Of a DNA stretch of 64,000 nucleotides, positions 25,841 through 49,411 are shown piece by piece. The stretch comes from Mycobacterium intracellulare ATCC 13950 (GTDB lineage Bacteria; Actinomycetota; Actinomycetes; Mycobacteriales; Mycobacteriaceae). Made by a program: the position numbers and the translations under genes. Position 1 is the stretch's first letter. Each line of letters begins with the position of its first letter. Under the pieces are notes generated by a model that searched no databases, was not told the origin of the DNA, and saw only the letters and a list, made by a program, of their open reading frames with translations. The stretch covers positions 5,146,001-5,210,000 of the forward strand of contig NC_016946.1 of assembly GCF_000277125.1 (NCBI RefSeq), in the 5' to 3' direction.

Positions 25841-25842
25841 GG

Positions 25843-26712: not shown

Positions 26713-26713
26713 G

Positions 26714-34881: not shown

Positions 34882-35606
34882 CGGATCTGCAGGCATTGAC
34901 CACCGTCGATGATGAGTTCGGAGCCGGTGATGAACGACGCCTCGCCGGAGACCAGGAACGCCACGGCGTCGGCGACTTCGTCGGCGCGGCCTATCCGCCC
35001 GAACATCGATGCCGCAGCGAGCCGGGTCTGGGTGGTCTCGTCGAGCATCGTGGTGGCGATCGGCCCGGGGAACACCGCGTTGACCCGGATGCCGGAGGGC
35101 GCGAGTTCGGCGGCGGCGGTCTGGGTCAGGCCGCGCAGCGCCCACTTCGACGAGCCGTAGGCGCCGTGCTGGGGGAACGGGCGGATCGCGCCGGTGCTGC
35201 AGATGTTGACGATGGAGGCGTCGGGCGCCGCGCGCAGGTGTTCGAGCGTGGCGCGCATGCCGAGGAACGCGCCCAGACAGTTGACCCGCCACGAGTTTTC
35301 GAATCCTTCGGCGGTCTCCTCGGTCAACGACGCGCGGTGCAGCACGCCGGCGCAGTTGACCAGCGTGCTCAGCGACCCGAAACGGTCGACGACGCGTGCG
35401 ACGGCCGAGTCCCACTGCTGCTCCGCGGTGACGTCGAGCTCCACCGCGATCAGTTCCTCGTCGCCCGATTGGCGCACCGCGGCGGCGAGTTCGTCGGCCC
35501 GCCGATCGCAGGCGGCCACCGAAAACCCCTTGGCACGTAGGCGTTCGGCGATGGCCCGGCCCTGCCCGCCGGCCGCGCCGGTCACGAGTGCGACACGTGG
35601 GTTCAT
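34878..35606 (-). CDS. short-chain dehydrogenase/reductase
   Basis: A 242-aa SDR with NAD(P) motif GAAGGQG (residues 9-15), NCAGVL near 88 and catalytic YGSSK near 150. It should interconvert an alcohol and a ketone, and in this operon would supply the ketone for the monooxygenase. The start at 35606 overlaps the SnoaL-like gene by 4 bases, so the open frame further upstream is not used. Confidence 0.87.
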   Translation of the reverse strand: MNPRVALVTGAAGGQGRAIAERLRAKGFSVAACDRRADELAAAVRQSGDEELIAVELDVTAEQQWDSAVARVVDRFGSLSTLVNCAGVLHRASLTEETAEGFENSWRVNCLGAFLGMRATLEHLRAAPDASIVNICSTGAIRPFPQHGAYGSSKWALRGLTQTAAAELAPSGIRVNAVFPGPIATTMLDETTQTRLAAASMFGRIGRADEVADAVAFLVSGEASFITGSELIIDGGQCLQIR

Positions 35607-36013
35607 GCCGGCGCGCCCTCGGGGTTGTCGGACAGTCCGCCGCTGGTGATGAAGCGGCACCGGCGCCGCGCGAAACGCCACTGGCCGTCCACGCGGGTCA
35701 GCTCGTCGTCGTAGAGGGCGGGCCGCAACTGCAGATCGCCGCACCGGACGAACAGCACCTGCGATCGGGCGCTCGCGCGGTCCCCGTCGACTGTGATCCG
35801 CGAGACGCCGGTCAGATGCAGGCCGCGCGCCGCGGCGCGGAACATGTCGGCGATCCCGTCATGGCCCGCGAAAGTCCGGCCGTACGCCAGGAATTCGCCG
35901 TCGGGGGCGAACAGCCGGACGCAACCGTCGACATCACCGGCGTCGAGAGCGAGCGCGTAGCCGGCGATCAAATCGCGGATCGCTGCCTCGTCGTCCGGCG
36001 GGTAGGCGGTCAT
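35603..36013 (-). CDS. SnoaL-like / NTF2-fold protein
   Basis: A 136-aa protein of the SnoaL_4 / nuclear transport factor 2 fold: EAAIRDLIAGYALALDAGDV at the N-terminus and DGCVRLFAPDGEFLAYG next. Members act as cyclases, hydratases or small-molecule isomerases, or have no known activity. ATGA overlaps link it to both neighbours. Its role in the pathway cannot be set from sequence. Confidence 0.8.
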   Translation of the reverse strand: MTAYPPDDEAAIRDLIAGYALALDAGDVDGCVRLFAPDGEFLAYGRTFAGHDGIADMFRAAARGLHLTGVSRITVDGDRASARSQVLFVRCGDLQLRPALYDDELTRVDGQWRFARRRCRFITSGGLSDNPEGAPA

Positions 36014-36768
36014 TGCGTCGCCTCACGCAGGTGTTCGGCGGCCCCGCGGCGCAGTGCCTGCGACTCGGCGGCCAGCGTGATCATGCGAAAACCCAGCCGC
36101 GCCATGGCCTGGCCCGTCATGCCGTCCCCGGCGTGAATGCCGGTGACCAGCCCCGCATCCGAGGCCGCCCGGTGGATGCGCGTGATCGCGTCGAGCACCT
36201 CGGGATGCCGGGTCGCACCGAGGACGCCGGCGCCCATCGAGATGGCGAGATCGGCCGGGCCGACGTAGATCCCGGTCAGGCCGTCGACCGCGCAGATCTC
36301 GCGGATGTCCGCCAGCGCCGCCGCGGTCTCGATCATCGCGAACACGCCGATCCGGGATTCGTGGGCGGCGGGGTCGTGCCCCAGGCTGGCGCGCAGCGGT
36401 CCGAAGCTGCGCACGCCCGCCGGCGGGTAGCGGGTGGCGGCCACGGCGGCGGCGGCCTCGCCGGCCGATTCGATCATCGCGATGACGACGGCGTCGGCCC
36501 CGGCGTCGGCCACCCGCCCGATCGGTGCGGCGTCGGCGTTGGGCAGGCGCACGACGGTGCCCAGCGGCAGGTGTTCGGTGCGGCGCAGCATGCGGGCGAT
36601 GCCGGCGTCGTCGAGATAGCCGTGCTGGGCGTCGAATCCGACGTAGTCGTAACCGGCGCGGGCGAATTCCTCGGGTCCCAGCCAGGTGGGGCCGGTGACC
36701 CAGCCGCCGAAGATGGCGGGCTTGCTGCTGAGCGCCAGTTGCAGATTGCCCGGCGAAGCGTCGGTCAC
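36010..36768 (-). CDS. HpcH/HpaI-family aldolase
   Basis: A 252-aa class II metal-dependent aldolase of the HpcH/HpaI type. FDAQHGYLDD near residue 44 holds the catalytic His, VRLPN the Arg, and MIETAAAL and IYVGPADLAISMG hold the metal-binding Glu and Asp. The family cleaves 4-hydroxy-2-oxo acids, or related hydroxyacyl substrates, to pyruvate plus an aldehyde. It would act late in the pathway, after ring opening. GTG at 36768; 10 bases after the dehydrogenase stop. Confidence 0.85.
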   Translation of the reverse strand: MTDASPGNLQLALSSKPAIFGGWVTGPTWLGPEEFARAGYDYVGFDAQHGYLDDAGIARMLRRTEHLPLGTVVRLPNADAAPIGRVADAGADAVVIAMIESAGEAAAAVAATRYPPAGVRSFGPLRASLGHDPAAHESRIGVFAMIETAAALADIREICAVDGLTGIYVGPADLAISMGAGVLGATRHPEVLDAITRIHRAASDAGLVTGIHAGDGMTGQAMARLGFRMITLAAESQALRRGAAEHLREATQ

Positions 36769-36778
36769 GGTCGGCCCC

Positions 36779-37747
36779 TCACCCGGCGATCGCAATCTTG
36801 ATGCGCTCGGCCACCGGTCGGCAGGCCAGCTCGAACGCGTCCTGCACCTGCTCGACGCCGAACGTGTGGGTGAGGTACGCGCCGAGCAGCCAGGGATGCT
36901 CGGCGGCGAACTTGCTCGCGAGCTCCAGCATCCGCCGACGGTCAAGCGTCACACCGGATTTCAGCGTCAGGTTGTTGCGCAGCATGGCCCGCATGCTGAT
37001 GGGATACATCTCGTCGTCGGCGACACCGAAGTAGAAGACGGTGCCGCCGGGGGCGGTGGCGTCGATGGCGTGGGTGAGGGTGGCCACCTGGTGACCGACC
37101 GCCTCGATGACGACGTCGGCGCGGTCCCCCGGTTCCAGCTGACTCGCCCAGCGGTCGCTGGTGGCGCGCACCGGTTCGTCGACGCCGAATGCCCTTGCCA
37201 CATCGCGGCGGTCGATCGGATCGACCCCGGTGACGCGGCGCGCACCGGCCGCCTTGGCGACGTAGGAGAACAGCAGGCCGATCGATCCCTGGCCGATGAT
37301 CGCGACGCGCCGCCCGGCCAGATCGCCGAGTTGCTCGCAGGCGTAGAGCACACAGGCCAGCGGTTGCAGGCCGATCGCCTGCGCCGGCGTCAGCGCCGGG
37401 TCGTAGGGCGCCAAACCGTCACCGTCGGTGACGATGCGTTCCATCATGCCGTCGAACCCGGAGGCCCAGCCGACGACGAGGTCCCCGGGGCGGTGCGCGG
37501 GGTGGCGGCTGGCGATCACCTCGCCGGCGACCTCGTGGATGGGGAAGCCGTCCTTCTCGGGTCCGCTGCGGCCGTCGTCGCCGGGGATTCGGCCCTTGGC
37601 GCCGCGAAACGCGGGCAGATCGCTGCCGCAGACGCCGGCGGCCAGGAACCGCAGCAGCACCTGCCCGTCGGTCAGGGACTCAGGGGCGGTGTCGGCGATC
37701 GTCGTCCGCTCGAACAGATACGGGGCGATGAGCCGGTAGGACCACAC
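36779..37747 (-). CDS. medium-chain (zinc-type) dehydrogenase
   Basis: A 322-aa MDR-family oxidoreductase with AAGVCGSDLP near residue 33 (zinc Cys) and HEVAGEV. The coenzyme motif is IIGQGSIGLLF near 137, and VIEAVGHQ follows. The structural zinc lobe is not evident, so it is shorter than classic alcohol dehydrogenases. It probably oxidises the hydroxyl introduced by the P450. GTG at 37747 is preceded by GGAGG about 6 bases upstream and lies 1 base after the P450 stop. Confidence 0.82.
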   Translation of the reverse strand: MWSYRLIAPYLFERTTIADTAPESLTDGQVLLRFLAAGVCGSDLPAFRGAKGRIPGDDGRSGPEKDGFPIHEVAGEVIASRHPAHRPGDLVVGWASGFDGMMERIVTDGDGLAPYDPALTPAQAIGLQPLACVLYACEQLGDLAGRRVAIIGQGSIGLLFSYVAKAAGARRVTGVDPIDRRDVARAFGVDEPVRATSDRWASQLEPGDRADVVIEAVGHQVATLTHAIDATAPGGTVFYFGVADDEMYPISMRAMLRNNLTLKSGVTLDRRRMLELASKFAAEHPWLLGAYLTHTFGVEQVQDAFELACRPVAERIKIAIAG

Positions 37748-37748
37748 C

Positions 37749-38990
37749 TCAGACCTCCACCGGGATGTTGTTCCAGCCCCATTGGAAGCTGGACGGCAAC
37801 CGGGTGGCGGCGTGGGTCTGGATCGCGTAGTCGGGCACCCGACGCAGCCATTCGGCAAGCAGCACATCGATTTCCAGCCTGGCCAGGTGGTAGCCGATGC
37901 AGAAGTGCTGGCCGCGGCCGAACGCCAGCGAGCGGCGGATGGGCCGGTCCCAGATGAACTCGTCGGGCTCGGGGTATTCCCGCTCGTCGCGGCTGGCCGA
38001 GGCGAGCAGGGTGATGACGCGCTGGCCGGGATTGATGGTCTGACCGTGAATGTCGAAGGGCTTGCGCGCCGTTCGCGCGAACCACTGCGCGGGCGCGCAG
38101 TATCGGATCATCTCCTCGCGGGCGACGGGCACGTTGCCTTCGGGATCGGCGCGCACGGCGGCCAACTGGTCGGGCCGCCGGCTGAGCTCCCACAGCCCGT
38201 GGGCGACGATCTTGGGGACCGTCTCGGTTCCGCCGATGAAGATGCACAGCATCTGGGTGGCGACTTCCATGTCGTCCAGGGCGCTGCCGTCGGGCAGGTG
38301 GTAGCCGAGCAGGCCGTCGACCACGTCCAGCGGCGGCCCGGACCGGTCGGCGCGGCGGCGCGCGACCGCGGGCAGCAGGAACTCGAAATAGTTCGGGCGC
38401 GCCTGCCCGGTGTCCACGCCGACACCCGGCTGGGCGAGGCTGCCGGCGTTGACCGCGGCGAGGACCTGCGGCGCGAGATCGGTGGGAATGCCGAGGAGTT
38501 CGCAGACGATCGCGGCAACCACGACGCCGCCGTAGTCCTGGGTCAGGTCGAACGAGCCGCGCGGCAACAGCAGGTCGAGGCGTTCGTTGGCCAGCTCGCG
38601 GATCCTGCCCTCGAGGTCGGTGACCGAACGCGGCCGAAACGGCCGGGAGTGCGTGCGCCGGATCTCGCCGTACAGGTCGGCGTCGAACATGGCGTGGAAC
38701 GGAAGCGGGTGCAGCGGCGGGTCGTCGACCGGTCCGGAGTTGTGTTGGGCCAGAACCGATGCCGCCGGCAGCGTGCCCTCCGAGGCGACGAACGTGCCGT
38801 TGTTGACTTCCAGCACCTTCCAGATGTCCTCGAAACGCGACAGCGCGAAGGTGTCCCATTGCGGCATGTAATACACCGGGTGCTGGTCGCGCAGGATTCG
38901 GTAGTACGGCAAGGGGTTTGCCATCACCGCAGCGTCGAAGGGGTCGTACCTGAAGTCGGTGTGGTCCATGGGTCCTTGGCGCTCGGTCAC
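37749..38990 (-). CDS. cytochrome P450
   Basis: A 413-aa soluble class I-type P450. The heme-binding motif FGRGQHFCIG places the axial Cys at about residue 364, EEMIR is the K-helix ExxR, and FIGGTETV is the I-helix oxygen-activation site. It hydroxylates or otherwise oxidises an organic substrate using ferredoxin. No ferredoxin or ferredoxin reductase gene is in the operon. GTG at 38990 overlaps the upstream stop as GTGA, like all other junctions here; an ATG at 38969 would remove seven residues. Confidence 0.93.
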   Translation of the reverse strand: MTERQGPMDHTDFRYDPFDAAVMANPLPYYRILRDQHPVYYMPQWDTFALSRFEDIWKVLEVNNGTFVASEGTLPAASVLAQHNSGPVDDPPLHPLPFHAMFDADLYGEIRRTHSRPFRPRSVTDLEGRIRELANERLDLLLPRGSFDLTQDYGGVVVAAIVCELLGIPTDLAPQVLAAVNAGSLAQPGVGVDTGQARPNYFEFLLPAVARRRADRSGPPLDVVDGLLGYHLPDGSALDDMEVATQMLCIFIGGTETVPKIVAHGLWELSRRPDQLAAVRADPEGNVPVAREEMIRYCAPAQWFARTARKPFDIHGQTINPGQRVITLLASASRDEREYPEPDEFIWDRPIRRSLAFGRGQHFCIGYHLARLEIDVLLAEWLRRVPDYAIQTHAATRLPSSFQWGWNNIPVEV

Positions 38991-39691
38991 TGCAGGGGTG
39001 AGGGCGGGAGGGCCTGCAGGATGGAATCTTCCCACCCGTCCCGCAACGCGGGGGCCACGCTCATCCAGGTGACGATCTCGGCGGGTGGGCTCTCCTTCCA
39101 CGACGGGTAGTGCTCGGCGAAGCAGTCCCATCCCCCGTCCAGCGCCCAGTAGTGGATGACCTCGTTGAAGCGGAAGGTCGTCGTGAACGAACCGAGCCAG
39201 CGTTTTCCGGTGCGTTCCGACCACGGCACGTAGAGCCGCTCGAGCTCCCGGATGTAGTCGTCCTGCCGGCCGGGCTTGGTCTGCATGATCTCCTGGATCA
39301 CCAGCGGCGCAGTGAAATTGGCCTCGCGCAGCTGGGCGAGCGTCCTGTTGCTGGGGCCGGCGTACATGATGCGTCCCTCGCCCGAGGCGCCGAGGTCGGC
39401 CAGGAACGCCGACCATTTGCCGGCGGCGGACTCGTGACTGCCGCCGCGGGCCTGGGCGGCGCCGATCCTGGCGTAATCGGCGAACCCGTCGATCTCCCAG
39501 ATCACCGTCACCTGTGGCCAGTGGCCGTTGTACGGGGTGGATTCCCAGATCGCGAACAGCCGGGCGCCGAGTTGTTCCATCATCGGCTGGTAGGTGTCGG
39601 CGAAGACCTCGGTGAACCGGTCGCTGCGCCCGGATCCCAGCGAGATCGTCTCGTGCAGGTAGAGCAACGCGTGTTTGTAGTACTTCTTCAT
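38987..39691 (-). CDS. NIPSNAP-like dimeric alpha/beta-barrel protein
   Basis: A 234-aa protein with two similar halves, one starting KKYYKHALLYLHETI and the other APLVIQEIMQTKPGRQDDYI. This is typical of dimeric alpha/beta-barrel (NIPSNAP-like) proteins. Trp residues are frequent. The activity is unknown; such folds act as small monooxygenases, isomerases or ligand binders. ATGs and stops overlap the P450 gene by 4 bases downstream. I am not certain of the family name. Confidence 0.6.
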   Translation of the reverse strand: MKKYYKHALLYLHETISLGSGRSDRFTEVFADTYQPMMEQLGARLFAIWESTPYNGHWPQVTVIWEIDGFADYARIGAAQARGGSHESAAGKWSAFLADLGASGEGRIMYAGPSNRTLAQLREANFTAPLVIQEIMQTKPGRQDDYIRELERLYVPWSERTGKRWLGSFTTTFRFNEVIHYWALDGGWDCFAEHYPSWKESPPAEIVTWMSVAPALRDGWEDSILQALPPSPLQ

Positions 39692-39694
39692 GGC

Positions 39695-40258
39695 CTAGTC
39701 GAGCCGGATCAGCTCGGAGTCGGCCCCCGAACCCACGTCGCACAGCAGCGTCTCCGTCGGGGCGACCGTGGCGTCCGAAATACCCTCTGCCGCAAGCGCA
39801 TAGCCCTTGAACATGCGCGCCGCCCCGCTGAGCAGGTGCTGGGCGCGGGTCGTGGCACGCTGCACTCCCAGCGGCCACCCGTCGCCCCACAACGCGACCT
39901 CCGTCAGCCGGTTATCCAGCGACTCGAGCACCGCGTCGCGCACCCGCGCGTCGGCGGTGAACGCGTCGGCGCTGACGGCCAGGCTGGTCGAGCCCGCACC
40001 CAGCGCGCCCAGGGACGGCTCGAGGTCGGACGCCCGCACCCCCAGGATCCGCAGCGCGCGGGTGTCGCGGCCCTGCGGGAGCAGCACCGTCACCTCCCAG
40101 CCGGCCATCGCCCGGTCGTAGAGCCACCCCCCGGCCGATTGCACGACGTCGACGGCGCTGGCGGCGACGACGTCCAGGCGATAGCGCAGGCCGTCGGCGT
40201 TGGCCTGGGTTGCTCGGGCGGCGTCGGTCTTGCTGATGTCGAACGTTGGAGCGACCAT
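39695..40258 (-). CDS. conserved protein of unknown function, first gene of the accessory operon
   Basis: A 187-aa protein. No domain is recognised with confidence. The middle contains GWEVTVLLPQGRDTRALRIL and later ARMFKGYALAAEGI; the protein looks soluble and alpha/beta. It is the first gene of the nine-gene operon and starts at ATG 40258, 3 bases upstream of the NIPSNAP-like gene. The 158-base region upstream holds one copy of the 28-bp shared element. Confidence 0.65.
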   Translation of the reverse strand: MVAPTFDISKTDAARATQANADGLRYRLDVVAASAVDVVQSAGGWLYDRAMAGWEVTVLLPQGRDTRALRILGVRASDLEPSLGALGAGSTSLAVSADAFTADARVRDAVLESLDNRLTEVALWGDGWPLGVQRATTRAQHLLSGAARMFKGYALAAEGISDATVAPTETLLCDVGSGADSELIRLD

Positions 40259-40374
40259 CGATCCATTCCTCACCACGGCCCCAACGACTCCGTTGGCGGG
40301 CCTCACGCGCTTGTCACGGCTTTCTCAAGGGCTGGAGCCGCTGCACGCGTCGGGTGAAGCGACTCACCGCACAG

Positions 40375-40402
40375 CGTGACACTTCCGGCGAAATTTGTAA
40401 AG
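40375..40402. promoter_or_regulatory. shared 28-bp element, copy 1
   Basis: CGTGACACTT at 40375-40384 and TTTGTAAAG at 40394-40402 with nine bases between. The same two blocks with the same spacing occur at 46475 and 47063. Here the element lies 117 bases upstream of the minus-strand operon that begins at 40258, in the reverse orientation relative to it, and 15 bases beyond the stop of the CoA-transferase gene. TGACA and TGTAA form an imperfect dyad. Confidence 0.7.
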
Positions 40403-40416
40403 GTCCGGTCGGGTCC

Positions 40417-41586
40417 TCACGACCCGCGGCGCGCCTCGAGGTCGGCCAGGACCTCCTCGGTGTGCTGCCCGAGTTCCGGTGCCGCAGAACGCGGTGCCCA
40501 GGGGGTGCCGTGAAAATCCGCCGGCGTGGCCACCATCGGCACGGCCGCGTCCCCGTCGGGCACGTCGACGATGCCGCCCGCGGCGTGGAACTGCTCGTCG
40601 GCCACGACGTCCTCGAGCGTGTTGACCGGCGACCAGAAGAAATCCGGTTCGCCGGCAAAGATCCGCGCCCATTCATCAAGGGGGCGCGTCGCGAAGATCT
40701 CGTCCAGCGCGACGATCAGCGCCGCCGAGTTGGCCGCGCGGGAGCGGGCGTCGGCGAACCGCGGGTCGTCGCGCCATTCGGGTCGCCCCACGGCGCGGCA
40801 CAGGGCCGGCCAGTGCCGCTCGGGCTCCAGGCCGACGATCCAGAACCGCCGCCCGTCTTGGGCGGCGTAGTTGTTCATGCACGGGTTGCCCATCGACTCG
40901 CGTTGCCCGATCGCGATCGGCTGCCCGCTCATCAGGTAGGTGTTCAGGTCGAAGCTCACGGTGTAGGCGCCCTGCCGGTACAGCGAGGTGGTCACCAGTT
41001 GGCCCGCCCCGGTGCGTTCGCGCGCGAGCAGCGCCGCGCACACGGCCGCGGCCATCGTCATCCCCGCGGAGTGATCGCCCATGCCACCACGCTGAAACGG
41101 GGGCGTCTCGCCGGGCCGGGTGAGCAGGTGGGCCACCCCGGCCCGGGACCAGAACGCGGCCACGTCGAAGGCGGCGCGATCGGCGTCCGGCCCGTTTTCG
41201 CCATACCCGGTGATGAGCCCGTAGACCAGGCGGGGGTTGGCCGCCGACACCGACTCGAAGTCCAGCCCCAGACGCTGCAGCGCGCCGGGTCGCACGTTGG
41301 TCAGGAAAACGTCTGCGCCGGCGAGCAATTCGAACGCGGTGGCGCGGCCCGCGTCGGTGCCGAGATTGAGGACCACGCTGCGCTTGGAGCGGTTGTCCAT
41401 TTCGAAGGGCGGGTTGAGGCCCATGTCGCAGCCCAGCATGCGGCCGAACATGCGCGCCGGGTCGCCCGTCGGCGGCTCGATCTTGATCACGTCGGCGCCC
41501 CAGTCCGCCAGGATGCCGCCGGCGGCCGGTCCGGCCACCCACACCCCGAGTTCGACGACCTTGACGCCTTCCACCGGTCCCGCCAT
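40417..41586 (-). CDS. family III (CaiB/BaiF) CoA-transferase
   Basis: A 389-aa CoA-transferase of the CaiB/BaiF type, with VVELGVWVAGPAAGGILADWGA near residue 10, KIEPPTGDP, and the catalytic Asp in GGMGDHSAG near residue 170. It moves CoA between carboxylic acids and would activate an acid for beta-oxidation. ATG at 41586. The longer open frame upstream to 41727 crosses the divergent gap of 200 bases to the SDR gene at 41787, where I see no clear promoter. Confidence 0.88.
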   Translation of the reverse strand: MAGPVEGVKVVELGVWVAGPAAGGILADWGADVIKIEPPTGDPARMFGRMLGCDMGLNPPFEMDNRSKRSVVLNLGTDAGRATAFELLAGADVFLTNVRPGALQRLGLDFESVSAANPRLVYGLITGYGENGPDADRAAFDVAAFWSRAGVAHLLTRPGETPPFQRGGMGDHSAGMTMAAAVCAALLARERTGAGQLVTTSLYRQGAYTVSFDLNTYLMSGQPIAIGQRESMGNPCMNNYAAQDGRRFWIVGLEPERHWPALCRAVGRPEWRDDPRFADARSRAANSAALIVALDEIFATRPLDEWARIFAGEPDFFWSPVNTLEDVVADEQFHAAGGIVDVPDGDAAVPMVATPADFHGTPWAPRSAAPELGQHTEEVLADLEARRGS

Positions 41587-41786
41587 GCGTAAGTTCCTAC
41601 TCCCTGCGCCGGCCGCCCGTTGCCACCGGGTCATCCGGTTCGCCGTTCTGATCTGCCCGCCGATGAATCTGGGTGGCCCCGTGTATCGGAATACATGCGG
41701 GCGTCGCGCAACGACTGGCCGCGGCAAGCCACCTCACCTATGCGGCCTGCCCAATCCGACACCAATCAATGAAGGAGGCCGTCATC

Positions 41787-42521
41787 GTGGCCACAATCTC
41801 ATGCAGGACGGTGCTGATCACCGGGGGAAATCGTGGCATCGGCGCCGCGCTGGTCGCGGAGGCCTTACGCCGGGGCGCCCGACGGGTGTACGTCGGCACC
41901 CGGAAGGCCTTGGCCGGCAACGGCGATTCCCGCGTGACACCGCTGGCCCTCGACATCACCGACCCCGCGCAGATTCGGCGGGCCGTGGCCAGGGTCGACT
42001 CGCTCGATGTCCTGGTCAACAACGCCGGCCTGGCGGTGTACGACGATCTCGGCGACGCCTCCGCACTGCGGACGCACCTTGCGGTGAATCTGCTCGGCAC
42101 GTACGACGTGATTCAGGCCTTCCTGCCGATGCTGACGCGATCCGGGGGATCGATCGTCAACAACCTGTCGGTGAACGCCCTGGCGCCGTTGCCGCTGATC
42201 CCGGCGTATTCGATCTCCAAGGCCGCGGCGTTCTCCCTCACGCAATCGCTGCGTGTCATCCTGGCCGGGCGGGGCGTGCGGGTTCATGCGGTGCTGACCG
42301 GTCCCGTCGACACCGACATGACCCGAGGCCTCGACATCCCCAAGGCCTCAACGCAATCCGTGGCACAAGGCATCTTCGACGGGCTGGAGAACGGCGACGA
42401 CGAGATCTTTCCCGACCCGATGTCGCGTTCGTTGGCGCAGCGCTGGCAGGTGGGCGTCGCCAAGCTGCTCGAGCAGCAGTACGCGGCCCTGCTCGCACCC
42501 GGAGATCCCGTCACATCCTGA
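41787..42521 (+). CDS. short-chain dehydrogenase/reductase
   Basis: A 244-aa SDR. NAD(P) motif ITGGNRGIG near residue 11, NNAGLAVYDD near 78 and catalytic YSISK near 150. GTG at 41787 is chosen because GAAGGAGG at 41771-41778 precedes it by 8 bases; the ATG at 41769 and the longer frame upstream have no comparable site. Substrate unknown. It is divergent from the CoA-transferase gene. Confidence 0.87.
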   Translation: MATISCRTVLITGGNRGIGAALVAEALRRGARRVYVGTRKALAGNGDSRVTPLALDITDPAQIRRAVARVDSLDVLVNNAGLAVYDDLGDASALRTHLAVNLLGTYDVIQAFLPMLTRSGGSIVNNLSVNALAPLPLIPAYSISKAAAFSLTQSLRVILAGRGVRVHAVLTGPVDTDMTRGLDIPKASTQSVAQGIFDGLENGDDEIFPDPMSRSLAQRWQVGVAKLLEQQYAALLAPGDPVTS

Positions 42522-42670
42522 CTCGCAATCACGAATCCGAATGCCGCCACGCTTACTCGGCCGCGCTGCGGTCGGGCTCCCGCCCTAACCGGGTCTGTCG
42601 GATCGAGGCCGGTGTGCACCACAATGGCCTACGCGGGAGCTAGATGAGTGGTTGCAACCGGGAGGAACGC

Positions 42671-43378
42671 ATGACTCTGGTGGCCGGGCGGGGACCGCTC
42701 AGCAGCGATCCGGCGGGGCGCTTCTCGCCCGCGATACCCGACGGGCCAGAAGGGATTGTGTACGTCGAGCCGCATCCCCGGCGCGTGCAGGCGGTCAAGG
42801 ACGGGCGGCTGGTGATCGACACAGAGCGGGCGCTGATGGTGCACCGGCGGGGCCGACCGCTGAGCTACGTCTTCGCGCCCGACGACGTCGGCGACCTGCC
42901 GAATGAGCCCGAGCCGGAGGCCCCCGGTTTCGTTCACGTTCCCTGGGACGCGGTGGACACGTGGTTCGAGGAGGGGCGCAAACTCGTGCACTATCCGCCC
43001 AATCCGTATCACCGCGTCGACTGCCGTCCGACGCAGCGCCGCCTGCGCGTCCGCGTCGGCGGCACCACGCTGGTCGACACCGACGACACGACGATCCTCT
43101 TCGAGACGGCGCTCGAGCCGAGGTTGTATGTCGACCCGGCACACGTGCGCACCGATCTGCTGGTGCGCTCCGAGACGTCGAGTTACTGCAACTACAAGGG
43201 CTTTGCGACGTATTGGTCGTTGGTCTCGGGTGAGCGCGTCGTCGAGGACGTCGCCTGGTGTTATCCCGATCCGCCGCCGGAAAGCCTGCCGATCAAGGGA
43301 TTCCTCAGCTTCGACGACACCCGCGCCGACGTGCTCGCCGAGCTGCCCGGTGGCCCCCGCGATCCCGCGAGAGTGTAA
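42671..43378 (+). CDS. DUF427 domain protein
   Basis: A 235-aa protein carrying two DUF427-like repeats. Each half has a VRVGG or VRVEPHPRRV type core, and the second half contains SSYCNYKGFATYWSL near residue 175. DUF427 proteins are common in actinobacteria and their function is unknown. ATG at 42671 is favoured by GGGAGGA at 42660-42666; an ATG at 42644 would add nine residues. The stop TAA lies inside a long dyad at 43365. Confidence 0.85.
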   Translation: MTLVAGRGPLSSDPAGRFSPAIPDGPEGIVYVEPHPRRVQAVKDGRLVIDTERALMVHRRGRPLSYVFAPDDVGDLPNEPEPEAPGFVHVPWDAVDTWFEEGRKLVHYPPNPYHRVDCRPTQRRLRVRVGGTTLVDTDDTTILFETALEPRLYVDPAHVRTDLLVRSETSSYCNYKGFATYWSLVSGERVVEDVAWCYPDPPPESLPIKGFLSFDDTRADVLAELPGGPRDPARV

Positions 43379-43427
43379 CTGGCAACGCATCTCCCGGGTG
43401 CCACCGTCGGTGGTGACACTCTCGCGG
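43365..43427. terminator. 12-bp perfect inverted repeat between convergent genes
   Basis: CCGCGAGAGTGT at 43365-43376 pairs perfectly with ACACTCTCGCGG at 43416-43427. An inner CCACCG/CGGTGG-like hairpin adds structure. It sits between the convergent DUF427 and acyl-CoA dehydrogenase genes and overlaps the DUF427 stop. A 46-base part of it recurs at 49343-49388 between another convergent pair. A bidirectional terminator is the simplest reading. Confidence 0.65.
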
Positions 43428-43433
43428 CAAAAG

Positions 43434-44609
43434 TCAGCGGCCGTAGCTGGGACGCCCGAGCCCCAGCTCGTGCTGGGCGATCATGTTGCGGAACACCTCC
43501 ATGGTGCCGCCGTAGATTCCGGCGGGCACGCCGTGGCGGAAGATGAACTCGATGGCACCGTCGTCCGCGGAACCCGTTGTGTCGGTGGGCAATGCCGAGG
43601 CCGTCCCCAGCAGGTCCATCAATTCCTGGGAGACCTCCCGCATGGTCTGGATGAGGCCCACGCGCCCGTACATCCCGGGAGTCGACATGGCCGCCTCGAT
43701 CCGAGCCATGGCGCGCCCGAGGCGGTATTTCGTCGCCTCGTCGTCGATCGGGCGGCGCCCGTCGGCGTCGGGCGTGGCCAGGATGGCCGCGACTCCGTCG
43801 GCCGCCTCGGCCATCAGCTGGCCGTGTTCGGAGAGCATCGAAATGTTCTGCAGGCCATGGTCTTGGACCTCGGTGATGCCGTGTTCGGCGTCGAGGGCGA
43901 ACCGCATCACCGTCCAGCCGCCGTTGACCTCGCCGATCCGGTAGAGGTCATCGACCCGCACGTCGCTGTAGTACACGATGTTGGTGCGGTCACCATCCAG
44001 CGTGCGGATGCCCTGGATCTCGATGCCCTCCGAATCCAGCGGCACCAGAAACATGGTCAGGTTCTTGTGCTTGGGTCCCTGCGGATCGGTGTTGGTGAGC
44101 AGGAAGACGTACTTGGCGTTCTGCGCGTTCGAGGTGAACATCTTGGACCCGTTGATGACCCACGCATCGCCGTCGCGCACGGCGCGCGTCTTGCAGGTGG
44201 CGACGTCGGAGCCGCCCTCGGGTTCGGTGTAGCCCAGGCAGAGCCGGATCTCACCGGACAGCACGCCCGGCAGCACCGCGTCGACGAGTTCGGGCGCCCC
44301 GAACTGCTGCACCAACCGCGCGACGACCGCCGTGGTGCCCCAGTGGAACCACGGGGCGTGGGCGCGACCGATCTCGAGGTGAAAGATCCGGCGGCGCACC
44401 GGATTGAAGCCGCCCTCGGACTCCAGCTTCCAGTCCGATTCCAGATAACCGGCTTCGCCCAACGCCAAATGCACCGGTTCACTGAAGTTTTCACCGGTCT
44501 CCCGGTCACGCCGCCGCACCTCATCGGTGACGTGCTCGGCGATGAACTCCCGGAACTGATCGTAGAAATCCTGGTCCTCGGGTGAGAGCGCGACGCGGGA
44601 GAAGTCCAT
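43434..44609 (-). CDS. acyl-CoA dehydrogenase
   Basis: A 391-aa FadE-type flavoprotein. LGYTEPEGGSDVA near residue 130 and NGSKMFTSNAQ near 157 belong to the FAD/substrate site, and IYGGTMEVFRNMIA near the C-terminus is the last conserved block. The position of the MCAD catalytic Glu (IYEGT) is Gly here, so the base must come from elsewhere, as in some other FadE groups. It introduces a trans-2 double bond into an acyl-CoA. It starts next to the stop of the oxidoreductase gene. Confidence 0.88.
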   Translation of the reverse strand: MDFSRVALSPEDQDFYDQFREFIAEHVTDEVRRRDRETGENFSEPVHLALGEAGYLESDWKLESEGGFNPVRRRIFHLEIGRAHAPWFHWGTTAVVARLVQQFGAPELVDAVLPGVLSGEIRLCLGYTEPEGGSDVATCKTRAVRDGDAWVINGSKMFTSNAQNAKYVFLLTNTDPQGPKHKNLTMFLVPLDSEGIEIQGIRTLDGDRTNIVYYSDVRVDDLYRIGEVNGGWTVMRFALDAEHGITEVQDHGLQNISMLSEHGQLMAEAADGVAAILATPDADGRRPIDDEATKYRLGRAMARIEAAMSTPGMYGRVGLIQTMREVSQELMDLLGTASALPTDTTGSADDGAIEFIFRHGVPAGIYGGTMEVFRNMIAQHELGLGRPSYGR

Positions 44610-45530
44610 TCAGGCCGCGTCGATCACGAGGGTGCGGAAACGGTCGAGGGTCTCGAGTGCGTGCGTCATGCTGTCGCCGGGCAGGTGGACACTGACCCAC
44701 GTCACCCCCAGCTTCGCCAGCCTGTCCAGGCCGTCGAGGTACGCGTCGGCGTTGAACGCGTCATCGGCGGGGCTGCCGCCCTCGAAGTTGGTGAAGGTGA
44801 TGTCGATCGCCGACCAATCCCGGCCCGCCGCATCGCATCTGCGTCGCAGGTCCTCGATGCCCTCGGCGAGCTTTTGCACCGAATCGATGGTGGCCGTGCC
44901 GGCGGTCTGCGCCAACTGGGGCGGGGCGGGAAACGGGCACCAGCCGTCGCCGTACTGTGCCACCCGCTGGCGCGACGCGGTGGTGTTGCCGCCGATCCAG
45001 ATCGGCGGGTGCGGGCTGCTCAGCGGCCGGGGATGCGCGGTGATGCCGCGCGCGCTGAAGTGCTTGCCCTCAAAGGAGATGTCGTCTTCGGTCCAGACGG
45101 CCCGGATCACCTGCAGCGCTTCCTCGAACAACTCGGCGCGCTCGTCGTAGCTGACGCCCAGCGCCGCGAACTCGCGCTTGAGGTAGCCCACGCCCACCGC
45201 GAGGGTGAAGCGGCCGCCGGATAGCAGATCCAGGGTGGCGCCGGACTTGGCCACCACGAACGGGTTTCGGTACGGCAGCACGACGATGTTGGGAATCAGC
45301 CGCAGGGTGGAGGTGGTGGCGGCGGCGAAACCCAGTGCGACGAAAGGGTCTAACGCGTCATGCCCGCCCGCGTCCAGCCACCGCTGCGACGGCGCGGGGT
45401 GATCGGTGAAGCCGAAACCGTGGATCCCGGCCGCTTCGGTGGCCGCGGCCACCTTGCCGATGCCGTCCCCACTGACCAATTCCGGGTTGTAGGGATGGCT
45501 GTGCATCGGGTGGGTGATGGTGAAGCGCAT
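44610..45530 (-). CDS. LLM-class F420-dependent oxidoreductase
   Basis: A 306-aa luciferase-like TIM-barrel protein: HGFGFTDHPAPSQRW near residue 38, LRLIPNIVVLPYRNPFVVAKS, and GRFTLAVGVGYLKREFAALG near 105. PIWIGGNTTASRQRVAQYGDGW further on is typical of the mycobacterial F420-dependent (TIGR03619-like) group. Mycobacteria use F420 rather than FMN in most of these. The substrate is unknown; it may reduce or oxidise an intermediate of the same pathway. 16 bases separate it from the thioesterase upstream. Confidence 0.87.
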   Translation of the reverse strand: MRFTITHPMHSHPYNPELVSGDGIGKVAAATEAAGIHGFGFTDHPAPSQRWLDAGGHDALDPFVALGFAAATTSTLRLIPNIVVLPYRNPFVVAKSGATLDLLSGGRFTLAVGVGYLKREFAALGVSYDERAELFEEALQVIRAVWTEDDISFEGKHFSARGITAHPRPLSSPHPPIWIGGNTTASRQRVAQYGDGWCPFPAPPQLAQTAGTATIDSVQKLAEGIEDLRRRCDAAGRDWSAIDITFTNFEGGSPADDAFNADAYLDGLDRLAKLGVTWVSVHLPGDSMTHALETLDRFRTLVIDAA

Positions 45531-45545
45531 CTGACTTTCCAGCCG

Positions 45546-46436
45546 TCAGAAGCGCGCGCGGGAATCGATCGCGGTGTCGCTGGTCCGCAGCGGGCGGATC
45601 AGCGCCTCCTGGGAGAACGACGCCAGCAGCTCCCCCTCCTCGGCGTGCACGGTGCCGCGCACGTACGACATGCCCGCGCCCACCTGGGTGCTCTCATGGG
45701 TGTAGAGGAGCCAGCCGCTCCAGCGCGCCGGCTCGTGGAAGGCGACCGAGATGCTCATCGGCGCGGTGGACACGGTCAGGTGCGCCTGGGCGGTGCCGAT
45801 GCCCTCGTGCGCGCGCATGGTGGTGGAGATCCCCAGGTGACCGGTGAAGTACGCCAGCAGCGCCTTGGCGAGGTCGTCGCGGGTCGGGATGGGGTCGTAG
45901 TGCAGCCACGCGTAGAGCTCCGGCGGGCCGACCTCGTCGGGGCTGTTGACGTCGACGACGTCCACCAGGCGCAGCTCGCGGCCGACCATCGGCATCGGTG
46001 AGGGGTTGGCGTCGGCCGGCGCGGCCACCTCGGGGCGCGGCAGGTGGTGACGGATGACGTCGGCGGTGGGGACGTCGGCCAGCACCGTGATGCTCAGGCA
46101 CCGGCGGCCGTTCTGGTGGACGGCCACGACGGCGGTGGCGGTGGACCGGCCCTCGGCCACGACGTCGAGGATCAGTTCGATCGGCGGGCCGACGGTCACG
46201 GCGCGGGAGAACACCGCGTGCGCCGAGCGCACCGACTTGTCCGGGAATCGTTTGGCCACCGCGACAATCGCCTGGGCGAGCACCTGGGTGCCCTCCACCA
46301 CCTGACGTTCGTCGCCGCCGGCGATGCCGGTCTCGCCGGCGAACCGGTCCTGCCCGTCGGCCTGCACGTCAAACAGATCCAGCAGGCCTTGCACCGTCCA
46401 CTCGGTCTGCTGAGACTCCTCGGAAGCTTTCGTCAA
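45546..46436 (-). CDS. TesB-like acyl-CoA thioesterase (double hotdog)
   Basis: A 296-aa protein of the acyl-CoA thioesterase II type. The first hotdog contains GTQVLAQAIVAVAKRFPDKS and SAHAVFSRAV, and the second LHYDPIPTRDDLAKALLAYF and ISVAFHEPARWSGWLLY. It should release free acid from acyl-CoA. ATG at 46436. It heads the minus-strand set with the LLM oxidoreductase and acyl-CoA dehydrogenase genes and is divergent from the SRPBCC gene, with one shared 28-bp element between. Confidence 0.83.
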   Translation of the reverse strand: MTKASEESQQTEWTVQGLLDLFDVQADGQDRFAGETGIAGGDERQVVEGTQVLAQAIVAVAKRFPDKSVRSAHAVFSRAVTVGPPIELILDVVAEGRSTATAVVAVHQNGRRCLSITVLADVPTADVIRHHLPRPEVAAPADANPSPMPMVGRELRLVDVVDVNSPDEVGPPELYAWLHYDPIPTRDDLAKALLAYFTGHLGISTTMRAHEGIGTAQAHLTVSTAPMSISVAFHEPARWSGWLLYTHESTQVGAGMSYVRGTVHAEEGELLASFSQEALIRPLRTSDTAIDSRARF

Positions 46437-46474
46437 ATCCGCTCCACCTCTCGCGCTAGCAGCTCAGGGCTCAG

Positions 46475-46502
46475 CGTGACACTTTGAGTAGGATTTGTAA
46501 AG
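46475..46502. promoter_or_regulatory. shared 28-bp element, copy 2
   Basis: CGTGACACTT at 46475-46484 and TTTGTAAAG at 46494-46502, the same blocks and nine-base gap as at 40375 and 47063. It is in the 132-base divergent gap between the thioesterase (start 46436) and the SRPBCC gene (start 46569), so it could act on both. Confidence 0.7.
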
Positions 46503-46568
46503 CTTGGCTAACAAGACCGCGGCCCGGCGGACCAGCCCGCCGACGAAAAGCGCAGGGAGGCAACGTCA

Positions 46569-47045
46569 TTGGGCATCGTGACCACCACTTCGGAGACCGC
46601 GTTCACGCAGTCCGCCGAGACCGTCTACGACTTCGTCACCAACCCGTTGAACTGGACCAAGACCTACCCCGGCAGCGCGCACATCGGCGGGTTGCCCGAC
46701 CTACCCCTCAAGGTGGGTGACACCTGGGAGGAAGCAGGGCCCGACGGCGACCGGATCTTCCGCTGGCAGCTGGCCGCCGCCGTGCGGCCGACGCTGTTCG
46801 TGTTCACCTCGATCGGCCGCCTGGGCCATGACCGCGACGGGAACGGCGGCATGGAGGGCAGGATCACCGTGTCGTACCACTTCACCCGGCCGGGCCAGGA
46901 CGTCACGCTGTTCTCCCGGACCATGACGATCGAGGCGTACAAGCACGCGCCCCTGCCCGATCAGCTCTTCATCCAGGCCAACCCGGCGAAGATCGACGCC
47001 TACCACGAGGCCGTCGCACGAGAACTCGCCCGGTCCGCAGATTGA
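46569..47045 (+). CDS. SRPBCC family protein
   Basis: A 158-aa START/SRPBCC-fold protein (SAETVYDFVTNPLNWTKTYPG near residue 15 and TVSYHFTRPGQDVTLFSRTM). Members bind or modify hydrophobic ligands. The start is TTG at 46569, set by AGGGAGG at 46554-46560, eight bases upstream; the GTG at 46578 is too far from that site. It lies 66 bases downstream of one shared element and 72 bases before the lactonase gene. Confidence 0.82.
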   Translation: MGIVTTTSETAFTQSAETVYDFVTNPLNWTKTYPGSAHIGGLPDLPLKVGDTWEEAGPDGDRIFRWQLAAAVRPTLFVFTSIGRLGHDRDGNGGMEGRITVSYHFTRPGQDVTLFSRTMTIEAYKHAPLPDQLFIQANPAKIDAYHEAVARELARSAD

Positions 47046-47062
47046 CACCGGTACCCGCGGTG

Positions 47063-47090
47063 CGTGACACTTTTTCGGTGTTTTGTAAAG
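47063..47090. promoter_or_regulatory. shared 28-bp element, copy 3
   Basis: CGTGACACTT at 47063-47072 and TTTGTAAAG at 47082-47090 with nine bases between, as at 40375 and 46475. It begins 18 bases after the SRPBCC stop and ends 28 bases before the SMP-30 start, a position suited to a promoter or operator of the + strand genes 47118-49339. Confidence 0.7.
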
Positions 47091-47117
47091 CGGAAGGTTG
47101 GCCAAAGGCATGAGCGG

Positions 47118-47936
47118 ATGATCCCCGAGCCGCTGGCCAACGGGTTCTGCTTCGGCGAGGGGCCGCGCTGGTTCGAGGGCCTGCTGTGGTTCTCCGACAT
47201 GCTAGGCGAGGCGGTCCACACCTCGACCATGGGGGGCTCGCTGACCACGCTGCCGTTGCCCGGGCACTCGCCGTCGGGCTTGGGTTTCCGTCCCGACGGC
47301 TCGCTGCTGATCGCGTCGACCGAGGATCGGCGGGTGCTGCGCTACGACGGCGAAAGCGTCGCCACCATCGCCGATCTCGCCGACGTGGCCCCGGCCAACC
47401 TCGGTGACATGGTCATCGACGACGTGGGCCGCGCCTACATCGGATGCCAGGCGCTGCGCGGCGGCGTCATCGTCCGCCTCGACCCCGACGACAGCGCGAC
47501 CGTCGTCGCCGAGGATCTCGACTTCCCCAACGGGATGGTGATCACCCCGGACCGCAAGACGCTGATCGTCGCCGAGTCGACGGGCCGGCGGCTGACCGCG
47601 TTTTCGATCGGCGGCGACGGTGGGCTGACCAACCGCCGGAGCTTCGCCGACGGCCTGGACGGGCCGCCCGACGGCATCGCGCTCGACGCCGAGGGCGGGG
47701 TGTGGACGTCGATGACCCTGGCCCACCAGTTCGAGCGGATCGTGGCCGGCGGGGACGTGACCGACCGGATCGACATGGGCGATCGGGTCGCCATCGCCTG
47801 CGCCCTCGGCGGCCCGCAGCGCCGCACCCTGTTTCTGTTGTCGAGCACGGACGCCTATCCTCAGCGCCTGGCCGGCACCCGGCTTTCCCGGCTGGACGCC
47901 GTCACGGTGACCACTCCCGGCGCCGGCCTGCCCTGA
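47118..47936 (+). CDS. SMP-30/gluconolactonase-like protein
   Basis: A 272-aa six-bladed beta-propeller. The N-terminus reads GFCFGEGPRWFEGLLWFSDM (calcium-binding Glu), the middle FPNGMVITPDRKTLIVAEST and PDGIALDAEGGVWTS. Members hydrolyse lactones with a divalent metal. In this block it is a second candidate for opening the product of the Baeyer-Villiger enzyme. ATG at 47118; the frame runs upstream to a GTG inside the shared element, which is unlikely to be the start. Confidence 0.87.
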   Translation: MIPEPLANGFCFGEGPRWFEGLLWFSDMLGEAVHTSTMGGSLTTLPLPGHSPSGLGFRPDGSLLIASTEDRRVLRYDGESVATIADLADVAPANLGDMVIDDVGRAYIGCQALRGGVIVRLDPDDSATVVAEDLDFPNGMVITPDRKTLIVAESTGRRLTAFSIGGDGGLTNRRSFADGLDGPPDGIALDAEGGVWTSMTLAHQFERIVAGGDVTDRIDMGDRVAIACALGGPQRRTLFLLSSTDAYPQRLAGTRLSRLDAVTVTTPGAGLP

Positions 47937-47953: not shown

Positions 47954-48775
47954 ATGACCGACGCCTACTACGAGTTGATCGATCCGGCCGACGCGCCGGG
48001 CCAGAAGTTCCGGGCGACCGACCTGGCGCGCGGCACCTGGTCGGCGGCGATCCAGCACGGTGGTCCGGTGTCGGGGCTGCTGGTCCGGGCGCTGGAGCGC
48101 TGCGAACAGCGCGACGACACCCGCCTGTCCCGGGTCGTGATCGACCTGCTGGGCGGGGTGCCGGCCGAGGGCGACCTGTGGGTCCGCGCGCAGGTGCAAC
48201 GGCCCGGCAAGCAGATCGAACTCGTCAGCGCCGAGATGCTGGCGCCGGGTCCCGACGGCGCTCCCCGGCCGGTGGCGCGCGCCACCGGTTGGCGGTTGCA
48301 GCACCAGGACACCGAGGAGCTCGCGCACGCCGCGGCTCCCCTGCCCCGGCCGAAGGCCGAGGCCTACGACCGCAACCTCAAGGCCAAGGACTGGGACCGC
48401 AACTACGTGCACAGCCTCGAGTGGCTGTGGCTGACCGAGCCGCTGAGCGAAGGCCCGGGCGAATCGTGGATCAACCCGACCGTCGACCTGGTCAACGGCG
48501 AGCCCATGACCCAGCTGGAACGGCTGTTCGCGGTCGCCGACTGCGCCAACGGCATCGGCAGCAAGCTGGACATCACCAAATGGACCTTCCTCAACACCGA
48601 TCTGGCCGTGCACGTGTTTCGTGTCCCCGATGGTGATTGGATCGGGATCAGGGCGGAAACCAGTTACGGGCCGGACGGGATCGGGACGACGATCGGCACA
48701 TTGTTCGACGAACAGGGCGCGGTCGGCGCCATCCAGCAGTCGGTGCTGGTGCGCCGGCGCCCGCCTCGGGCCTAA
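47954..48775 (+). CDS. thioesterase family protein (TesB-like, double hotdog)
   Basis: A 273-aa protein with IQHGGPVSGLLVRALERCEQ near residue 30 and MTQLERLFAVADCANGIGS near 180. These are the paired conserved blocks of the actinobacterial acyl-CoA thioesterase-like group. It probably hydrolyses a CoA ester. GAAGAGG at 47941 lies 6 bases before the ATG at 47954. It follows the lactonase gene by 17 bases and precedes the TetR gene by 15. Confidence 0.82.
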   Translation: MTDAYYELIDPADAPGQKFRATDLARGTWSAAIQHGGPVSGLLVRALERCEQRDDTRLSRVVIDLLGGVPAEGDLWVRAQVQRPGKQIELVSAEMLAPGPDGAPRPVARATGWRLQHQDTEELAHAAAPLPRPKAEAYDRNLKAKDWDRNYVHSLEWLWLTEPLSEGPGESWINPTVDLVNGEPMTQLERLFAVADCANGIGSKLDITKWTFLNTDLAVHVFRVPDGDWIGIRAETSYGPDGIGTTIGTLFDEQGAVGAIQQSVLVRRRPPRA

Positions 48776-48790: not shown

Positions 48791-49339
48791 ATGAGCCACC
48801 CGATCCGGGCGACGACGATCGCCGACACTGACACCTCGACCCGTCAGCGCATTCTGGCGGCCACCGCCGAGGTGCTCGGCCGCAACGGCAAGACCAAACT
48901 GAGCCTGTCCGACGTGGCCACCCAGGCGGGTGTCTCCCGCCCGACGCTGTACCGCTGGTTCGCGTCCAAAGAGGAGTTGCTGTCGGCGTTTTCGGCCTAC
49001 GAGCGACAGATCTTCGAAAGCGGCCTCGTGAAGGCCACCGCGGGCCTCAAGGGCGTGGACAAGCTCGACGCCGTGCTGCGGTTCATCGTCGATTACCAGC
49101 ATTCGTACTCCGGCGTGCGCATGGTCGACGTCGAGCCCGAGCACACCATCGCCCAGTTCTCGTGGGTGATCCCGCAGATGCGCGAGGGCTTGCAGCGGCA
49201 CCTGCCCGGGCCCAACTCCGCGGTGAAGGCGGCGACGGTCATCCGGATCGCGATCTCGCACTACATCGTGCGCAGCGACGACGCCGACCAGTTCCTGGCG
49301 CAGCTGCGCCACGCGGTCGGGATCAAGGGCTCGTCCTAG
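48791..49339 (+). CDS. TetR-family transcriptional regulator
   Basis: A 182-aa TetR protein. The helix-turn-helix is at about residues 15-65 (STRQRILAATAEVLGRNG, then LSDVATQAGVSRPTLYRWFASKEELL). The C-terminal ligand domain is short. It is the last gene of the + strand set and so the natural candidate to bind the 28-bp element found three times in this block. Auto-regulation from 47063 would follow. Confidence 0.88.
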   Translation: MSHPIRATTIADTDTSTRQRILAATAEVLGRNGKTKLSLSDVATQAGVSRPTLYRWFASKEELLSAFSAYERQIFESGLVKATAGLKGVDKLDAVLRFIVDYQHSYSGVRMVDVEPEHTIAQFSWVIPQMREGLQRHLPGPNSAVKAATVIRIAISHYIVRSDDADQFLAQLRHAVGIKGSS

Positions 49340-49342
49340 CCC

Positions 49343-49388
49343 CGCGAAACTGTAACTGGCAACGCGTTTCCCGAGTAGCAGCGTCGGT
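49343..49388. repeat. 46-bp intergenic element, second copy
   Basis: Matches 43367-43412 at 38 of 46 positions, including an identical TGTAACTGGCAACGC core (49351-49365 here). As at the first site it lies right after the stop of a + strand gene that faces a minus-strand gene. The outer arms are weaker here. It may be a terminator or a small transcribed element that has been copied. Confidence 0.55.
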
Positions 49389-49411
49389 AACGAGGGGCTC
49401 GCGAAGGCGGG

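Follow-up and report, generated by a model that had tools for sequence, protein, structure and literature searches.

Introduction

The closest described counterparts of the system considered here are KstR2 and BkaR, mycobacterial TetR-family repressors with small catabolic regulons, in which the TetR gene adjoins the pathway and a few intergenic sites serve divergent promoters. In the passages of these reports that were available, the KstR2 motif is predicted three times per genome, with three promoters (PMC3068626), and BkaR is described as autoregulatory (PMC3920632). Here we analyzed a 64,000-nucleotide stretch of Mycobacterium intracellulare ATCC 13950 (contig NC_016946.1, positions 5,146,001–5,210,000; hereafter the window), in which an element of 19 fixed bases, CGTGACACTT-N9-TTTGTAAAG, recurs in intergenic gaps beside pathway genes. 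Judged from sequence comparison, this element is very likely the operator of an autoregulated TetR-family repressor encoded at 48791 (TetR48) and by its orthologues. Its letters are unrelated to those of the two described operators, which are short palindromes, AnCAAGnnCTTGnT for KstR2 (PMC3068626) and GTTA(N)T(N4)A(N)TAAC for BkaR (PMC3920632), according to the parts consulted; the consensus of our element, an imperfect dyad of 28–32 bp, matched neither palindrome when compared by eye.

Other TetR-family proteins offer a likeness in length and layout. Single-dimer TetR proteins are described as using sites of 15–17 bp and dimer-of-dimers proteins as using sites of 22–32 bp, several of them without a palindrome, in the accessible text of PMC4150764; QacR, CgmR, Ms6564 and CprB belong to the latter type and resemble our element in site length and, in several instances, in not being palindromic, whereas for our element this mode of binding is suggested by how long the site is and how its half-sites are spaced. 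The operator of MAB_4384, likewise a mycobacterial TetR (M. abscessus), is a degenerate inverted repeat of 27 bp lying between divergent genes, but MAB_4384 controls an efflux pump (PMC5895659, as far as the available passages go), and the likeness is one of length and layout. Mce3R of M. tuberculosis uses paired asymmetric sites of about 25 bp (PMC11667970, from the portions seen), similar to our element in length; Mce3R is a 406-aa double TetR, whereas TetR48 is a 182-aa single-domain protein with one TetR_N stretch and lacks the two TetR units per polypeptide that mark the Mce3R family. Rv1255c, encoded beside cyp130, is, like TetR48, a P450-neighbouring TetR in mycobacteria (PMC4482099, as excerpted).

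No description of this operator or regulon was found in the literature searched by title, abstract and passages, a search that left most subscription papers outside; in the available passages of PMC11596240 the letters of the element were present in primers only. The element appears to be a real, conserved and apparently undescribed TetR operator of a known kind, in which a TetR protein of mycobacteria governs a small catabolic regulon.

Three copies of a genus-wide element

A pattern scan of the window revealed three exact matches to CGTGACACTT-N9-TTTGTAAAG, all of them on the plus strand.

40373..40404 (core 40375–40402), plus strand: candidate operator copy 1, found by pattern scan and matrix, 36 sites in its class; upstream of the minus operon (start about 117 bp away), with the CoA-transferase 3' end at a distance of 14 bp
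46473..46504 (core 46475–46502), plus strand: candidate operator copy 2, between the divergent genes for a TesB-like thioesterase (minus) and an SRPBCC-like protein (plus)
47061..47092 (core 47063–47090), plus strand: candidate operator copy 3, immediately upstream of the SMP-30/gluconolactonase-like gene, the first of the set that the TetR gene closes

All three copies are intergenic, in the gaps 40259–40416 (between two minus genes), 46437–46568 (between divergent genes) and 47046–47117 (between two plus genes), which confirmed the copies, coordinates and placement reported in the first-pass annotation. The window contained no further match at up to three mismatches, and the pattern was absent from 100 dinucleotide shuffles of it; a position-weight matrix built from the sites of relatives and of the window recovered the three copies and nothing else in the window at a score of 8 or more (training median 45.5). 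In the whole genome (one contig of 5,402,402 bases), only the same three copies were found at zero to two mismatches and a reversed control pattern had no match; the refuting outcome named in the first-pass annotation, a motif common genome-wide and unrelated to gene starts, thus did not occur.

A fourth match in this genome, with 3 of 19 positions mismatched, lies on the minus strand at C1:5100673–5100700 (about 10173–10200 of locus L055), and this corresponds to chance level, with about one such match estimated under uniform base composition. The weak site has a matrix score of 25, against a training minimum of 17, and lies a short way upstream of a gene for a 505-aa protein that is 29% identical to the AMP-binding enzyme of the window; another TetR gene, at C1:5101524, is about 0.85 kb away. 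This match may reflect chance or a site of a related regulator.

To describe the distribution of the element we searched for its core, TGACACTT-N9-TTTGTAA, allowing up to one mismatch. The core was present in 20 of 25 genomes of the genus and in none of 16 outside it (41 genomes), and, in a larger set, in 240 of 296 near-complete genus genomes, beside the same genes; the reversed control occurred in 9 of these 296 by hand count. The 19-base pattern at the same threshold, scanned in 298 genomes of the order, was found in 32 of 35 genus genomes and 0 of 263 others, with no match of the control. A scan of named genomes yielded at least 117 stretches; among the 80 listed, 79 belong by title to Mycobacterium, Mycolicibacterium or Mycobacteriaceae, and the remaining one, from Aldersonia, has the same NIPSNAP and SMP-30 neighbours. 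The closest neighbour genes among the matches listed were those of Mycobacterium sp. WUMAC-067 and M. colombiense. A phage or plasmid origin was considered and set aside, the search, made in viral_contigs alone, returning zero exact matches.

The 80 listed loci carry 92 exact sites in four main contexts: between a NIPSNAP (or alcohol dehydrogenase, ADH, or TesB) gene and the SMP-30 gene; between the gene of unknown function represented at 39695 in the window and the CoA-transferase 3' end; between TesB and SRPBCC genes; and between P450 and TetR48 genes. Ten of the 92 lie inside a called frame: in nine cases a first SMP-30, NIPSNAP or TesB gene had been called too long at its 5' end, and the tenth frame is unnamed. 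Gene starts in relatives come from a codon-usage caller and are approximate. When the named loci were pooled with earlier loci, sites less than 60 bp from a locus end excluded and identical flanks merged, 146 distinct sites with at most one mismatch remained: 49 facing SMP-30, 36 of the kind of copy 1 (site-1 class), 29 facing TetR48, 10 facing SRPBCC and 22 unclassified.

In four loci (L043 at 9844, L127 at 79, L161 at 7756 and L177 at 5695) the element also adjoins a second FadE-like gene, so the regulon may be larger in some species; its product is 67–68% identical to the FadE of the window in L043, L127 and L177, and L161 has the same flanking letters.

TetR48 as candidate regulator

Copy 3 of the window leads a three-gene set that ends in TetR48.

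47118..47936, plus strand: SMP-30/gluconolactonase/LRE-like protein (PF08450), first gene behind copy 3
47954..48775, plus strand: acyl-CoA thioesterase, TesB-like double hotdog (PF13622/PF20789)
48791..49339, plus strand: TetR-family regulator TetR48, 182 aa (PF00440), last gene of the SMP-30/TesB/TetR set

TetR48 has an N-terminal TetR_N helix-turn-helix (HTH) domain (PF00440, E 1.7e-13, above cut-off), and its AlphaFold2 model contains nine helices at a mean predicted local distance difference test (pLDDT) score of 78, consistent with an all-helical TetR fold with a C-terminal ligand domain. Foldseek comparison of the model returned FasR and Rv0078 first (best E 3.7e-5), with FadR-type proteins, BkaR and KstR within the first 50, and several of the matches are titled as acyl-CoA complexes.

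An orthologue of TetR48 (E ≤1e-30) was found in 256 of the 296 genus genomes; 11 candidates were scored per genome, so that copy numbers are lower bounds. Motif and TetR48 occurred together in 238 genomes, the motif alone in 2 (G126 and G249), TetR48 alone in 18 and neither in 38 (Fisher p 1e-31, ignoring relatedness). This table was counted by hand, with 20 of the 40 TetR-negative genomes assigned by their absence from the positive list, and the 18 + 2 discordant genomes were searched a second time. The other TetR gene of the window, TetR53 (53632–54267), is a core gene, present in 294 of 296 genus genomes; it cannot explain a patchy motif and was rejected as regulator.

The position of the element relative to TetR48 genes points in the same direction: 29 of the 146 sites face a TetR48 gene, and other species have the element directly before TetR48, even where this gene is remote from the SMP-30 cluster. 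In genomes G004, G018 and G024 (one TetR48 match each), TetR48 falls outside the 20 kb around the SMP-30 cluster and the element is found at both places; TetR48 there adjoins NIPSNAP and P450 genes, and in G004 more than 1 Mb of the same contig separates it from the SMP-30 cluster. The segment that holds the recognition helix reads VSRPTLYRWF in 108 of 111 TetR48 matches of the fetched loci and VSRPTLYRYF in 3, counts in which loci partly overlap and matches are not independent. Taken together, the genus-wide co-occurrence and the element copies before TetR48 genes support TetR48, previously named as first candidate, as the probable regulator, and its place at the end of the SMP-30/TesB/TetR set makes autoregulation through copy 3 probable.

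Anatomy of the site and promoter architecture

Conservation beyond the core was assessed on 58 sites selected on the core alone, so that the flanks were unselected. Conserved letters were A(-1) in 45 sites, G(0) in 53, C(1) in 52, G(2) in 50, A(27) in 54, G(28) in 53 and T(30) in 32. The repeat itself stood as first described, whereas its length of 28 bp was understated, A(-1) and G(0) being conserved outside it and T(30) conserved there less strongly. The same 58 sites form a 32-bp imperfect dyad with its best centre at motif position 14.5 and 7 of 16 symmetric pairs (-1/30, 1/28, 3/26, 5/24, 6/23, 7/22 and 10/19); a dyad score as good was reached by 5 of 5000 column shuffles, which bore out the imperfect dyad suspected earlier and gives the element, imperfectly, the inverted-repeat symmetry of a TetR operator. 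In the SRPBCC-facing class (10 sites from close relatives), the spacer of copy 2, TGAGTAGGA, is conserved too. Conservation over 28–32 bp places the element in the 22–32 bp range of the dimer-of-dimers subclass, and since this length and the 17-bp distance between the outer ACA and TGT fit that subclass better, the element is perhaps bound by a dimer of dimers of the QacR/CgmR/Ms6564 type rather than by one dimer.

Further letters were noted around some sites. Some relatives (G007, G010 and G023) have tandem copies of the element 60–72 bp apart. Locus L191 has, at about 4950–4977, a second, diverged copy, GTGACAC..CCTGTAA, of the same spacing, as do L139, L147 and L202, and in these four loci it lies about 60–70 bp nearer the TetR48 start than the first copy. 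A possible extra half-site GTGnCAC was seen upstream of SMP-30-facing sites, and the TetR48 class has CAC in the corresponding position.

A TTGACA hexamer lies exactly 15 nt before CGTGACACTT in 44 of the 49 SMP-30-facing sites and in 8 of the 22 unclassified sites (52 sites in all), and in 0 of 29 TetR48-facing, 0 of 10 SRPBCC-facing and 0 of 36 site-1 sites. Of the five SMP-30-class sites without it, four adjoin a TesB gene and look misfiled by the class rule.

47042..47047, plus strand: TTGACA, putative -35 box in the promoter of the SMP-30/TesB/TetR set, separated from copy 3 by exactly 15 nt

We read this hexamer as a -35 box, not as a further half-site, because T is invariant at its first position, at which the operator arm has G. 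On this reading the -10 box has to lie inside the left arm of the operator, as TGACAC (17-bp spacer) or GACACT (18-bp spacer), and transcription would start within the operator. The mycobacterial -10 consensus is TANNNT, and neither candidate is a strong -10 by this measure. Judged by these letters, the operator at copy 3 probably overlaps the SMP-30 promoter. In the TetR48, SRPBCC and site-1 classes TTGACA stood at no fixed distance, and consensus views of the TetR48 and site-1 classes revealed no clear -35/-10 pair; the 10 SRPBCC sites, coming from close relatives and conserved throughout, are uninformative on the promoter.

The TTTGTAAAG end of the element faces a gene start at all 64 exact sites at which SMP-30 (35), TetR48 (21) or SRPBCC (8) is next downstream, and one-mismatch variants near the SRPBCC gene are reversed in two genomes (L064 and L065). 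Read in the direction of the element, 34 of the 36 site-1 sites meet a convergent gene next and one meets a co-directional gene (L049), and one site has no gene before the locus end.

Proposed regulation of the pathway

Genus conservation, co-occurrence with TetR48, the dyad and the TTGACA geometry all argue for the operator reading that the first-pass annotation had offered. The remaining genes that such an operator would control, and the gene that converges on copy 1, are as follows.

32456..40258, minus strand: minus operon of nine called genes behind copy 1 (domain matches and gene calling), comprising unknown 39695, NIPSNAP, P450, zinc ADH, HpcH/HpaI aldolase, SnoaL-like, short-chain dehydrogenase/reductase (SDR), flavin-containing monooxygenase (FMO)-like monooxygenase and alpha/beta hydrolase
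40417..41586, minus strand: CoA-transferase family III (PF02515), its 3' end converging on copy 1
43434..44609, minus strand: acyl-CoA dehydrogenase, FadE-like (PF02770/PF02771)
44610..45530, minus strand: F420-dependent LLM oxidoreductase of the TIGR03619 family (TIGR03619, above cut-off)
45546..46436, minus strand (start possibly 46394): TesB-like acyl-CoA thioesterase (PF13622/PF20789), first of the copy 2 minus set
46578..47045, plus strand (start 46569 or 46578): SRPBCC-like protein behind copy 2, no Pfam match, the name being tentative

In the proposed mechanism, TetR48 would occupy all three sites when no inducer is present and would block the overlapping or neighbouring promoters, keeping repressed the nine-gene minus operon, the TesB-LLM-FadE set together with the divergent SRPBCC gene, and the SMP-30-TesB-TetR set. 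Release would be brought about by a pathway intermediate; an acyl-CoA or a lactone would fit the enzymes. At copy 3, bound TetR48 would cover the -10 box and the start, giving repression by occlusion, and at copies 1 and 2, where no promoter box could be placed, the mode of repression is open. A more specific version is doubtful and is put forward tentatively: a single-domain TetR would act on an asymmetric 32-bp operator of fixed orientation to the genes, the GTGACAC arm doubling as the -10 box of SMP-30, and the asymmetry would set different repression strengths for two divergent transcripts, a dimer of dimers thereby doing what Mce3R does with two fused domains.

For mycobacteriologists, the regulon would comprise one regulator, one operator matrix and a recurring enzyme set (P450, FMO, NIPSNAP, HpcH-type aldolase, SMP-30, two TesB thioesterases, FadE, LLM and CoA-transferase), and deletion of the TetR48 gene should switch the whole pathway on and so help reveal its substrate. 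TetR48-like proteins were also found in three species close to the tuberculosis complex, M. decipiens, M. lacus and M. riyadhense, which should make loss or retention of the pathway traceable there.

Exceptions and alternative readings

Several observations weigh against TetR48 as the repressor acting at the element. Phylogeny stands outside the co-occurrence statistic, and the pairing with TetR48 is inseparable from pairing with the pathway genes, which were unscored across the 296 genomes. Genome G249 keeps two sites with one mismatch each, together with pathway genes, and has no TetR48 match at E 1e-20. Conversely, 18 genomes have TetR48 without the core motif; among them, G149 has a two-mismatch copy adjoining TetR48, and G205 has a three-mismatch copy 0.7 Mb off that may be chance. 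A scan of 17 such TetR48 loci revealed degenerate TKACA-N14-TGTAA sites in 3 and none in 14 (5 hits at 4 places, against 0.05 expected). VSRPTLYRWF is intact in these 17 motif-negative loci as well, so that the recognition helix does not separate the motif-positive and motif-negative groups, and the element is only partly palindromic. The pairing of motif and TetR48 is strong but not absolute.

As for the two genomes with the motif alone, G249 (L266) is a 99% complete single-contig genome without a TetR48 or TetR53 match, and G126 lacks both too; in G126 the site departs from the pattern at 3 of 19 positions, perhaps as a relic or by chance. The reversed control gave one match in the 20 discordant genomes.

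Among the alternatives, it is unlikely, though less so than the others, that TetR48, bound to the element, activates the divergent genes or exerts both effects on them. TetR-family activators exist, DhaS is titled as one among the Protein Data Bank (PDB) sequence matches to the TetR48 HTH, and the distance of 40–140 bp between the element and some left-hand genes would suit an activator; however, SMP-30-facing sites overlap the putative -10/start region, the position of a repressor, and KstR2 and BkaR, characterised mycobacterial relatives in kind, are repressors (PMC3068626 and PMC3920632, in the passages available).

We consider it very unlikely that the element is the operator of another regulator, such as a double TetR of the Mce3R type. 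The second HTH of Mce3R is the first PDB match to the TetR48 HTH, narrowly (E 8.8e-7, against 9.0e-7 for UidR), Mce3R uses two asymmetric 25-bp sites (PMC11667970, as quoted in part), and the tandem copies 60–72 bp apart in some relatives and the G249 sites without TetR48 would accord with this explanation. The genome also has five double-TetR genes, defined by two TetR_N hits in one open frame as in the Mce3R architecture (C1 118453, 636475, 1166684, 1436885 and 1498193), but no operator-like site (matrix score ≥6) occurs in the 7 kb taken around any of them, and double TetRs were rejected as regulator; the sites facing TetR48 genes and the co-occurrence with TetR48 also speak for TetR48 instead.

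That the two blocks are the -35 and -10 regions of an alternative sigma factor, the element itself being the promoter, as the first-pass annotation had allowed, is highly improbable: the 16–17 bp between GTGACA and the TGTAA/TAAAG block are promoter-like and all 64 exact SMP-30, TetR48 and SRPBCC sites have their right end towards the gene start, but a gene does not lie downstream in the reading direction at every site, the reading failing because site 1 reads into a converging gene end (34 of 36 in its class), and the variants reversed near SRPBCC, the separate TTGACA upstream of SMP-30-facing sites, the dyad and its company with a TetR gene across genomes all tell against it.

Neighbouring genes and other repeats

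The P450 gene divergent from TetR48 in locus L191 (3633–4877, minus) has CYP268A2 (6bld) as its closest PDB match, followed by CYP125- and CYP124-type chains, hinting, by similarity in this one locus, at branched-lipid, terpenoid or sterol side-chain substrates. A link to Rv1255c and CYP130 was not supported, the P450 beside TetR48 in this locus being CYP268A2-like, not CYP130.

The pathway block of the window is adjoined by an mce operon (about 19000–27529, minus), in which the scanned genes encode an MlaE permease, MlaD/Mce4_CUP1 proteins and a second MlaE, accompanied by an AMP-binding enzyme (27790–29385) and a GntR-FCD gene (29571); this adjoining Mce system may be the importer of the pathway substrate. 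Two similar intergenic stretches of the window, 43375–43410 and 49352–49390, start with GTAACTGGCAACGC, lie at or just after the ends of plus-strand genes and look like a short dispersed repeat.

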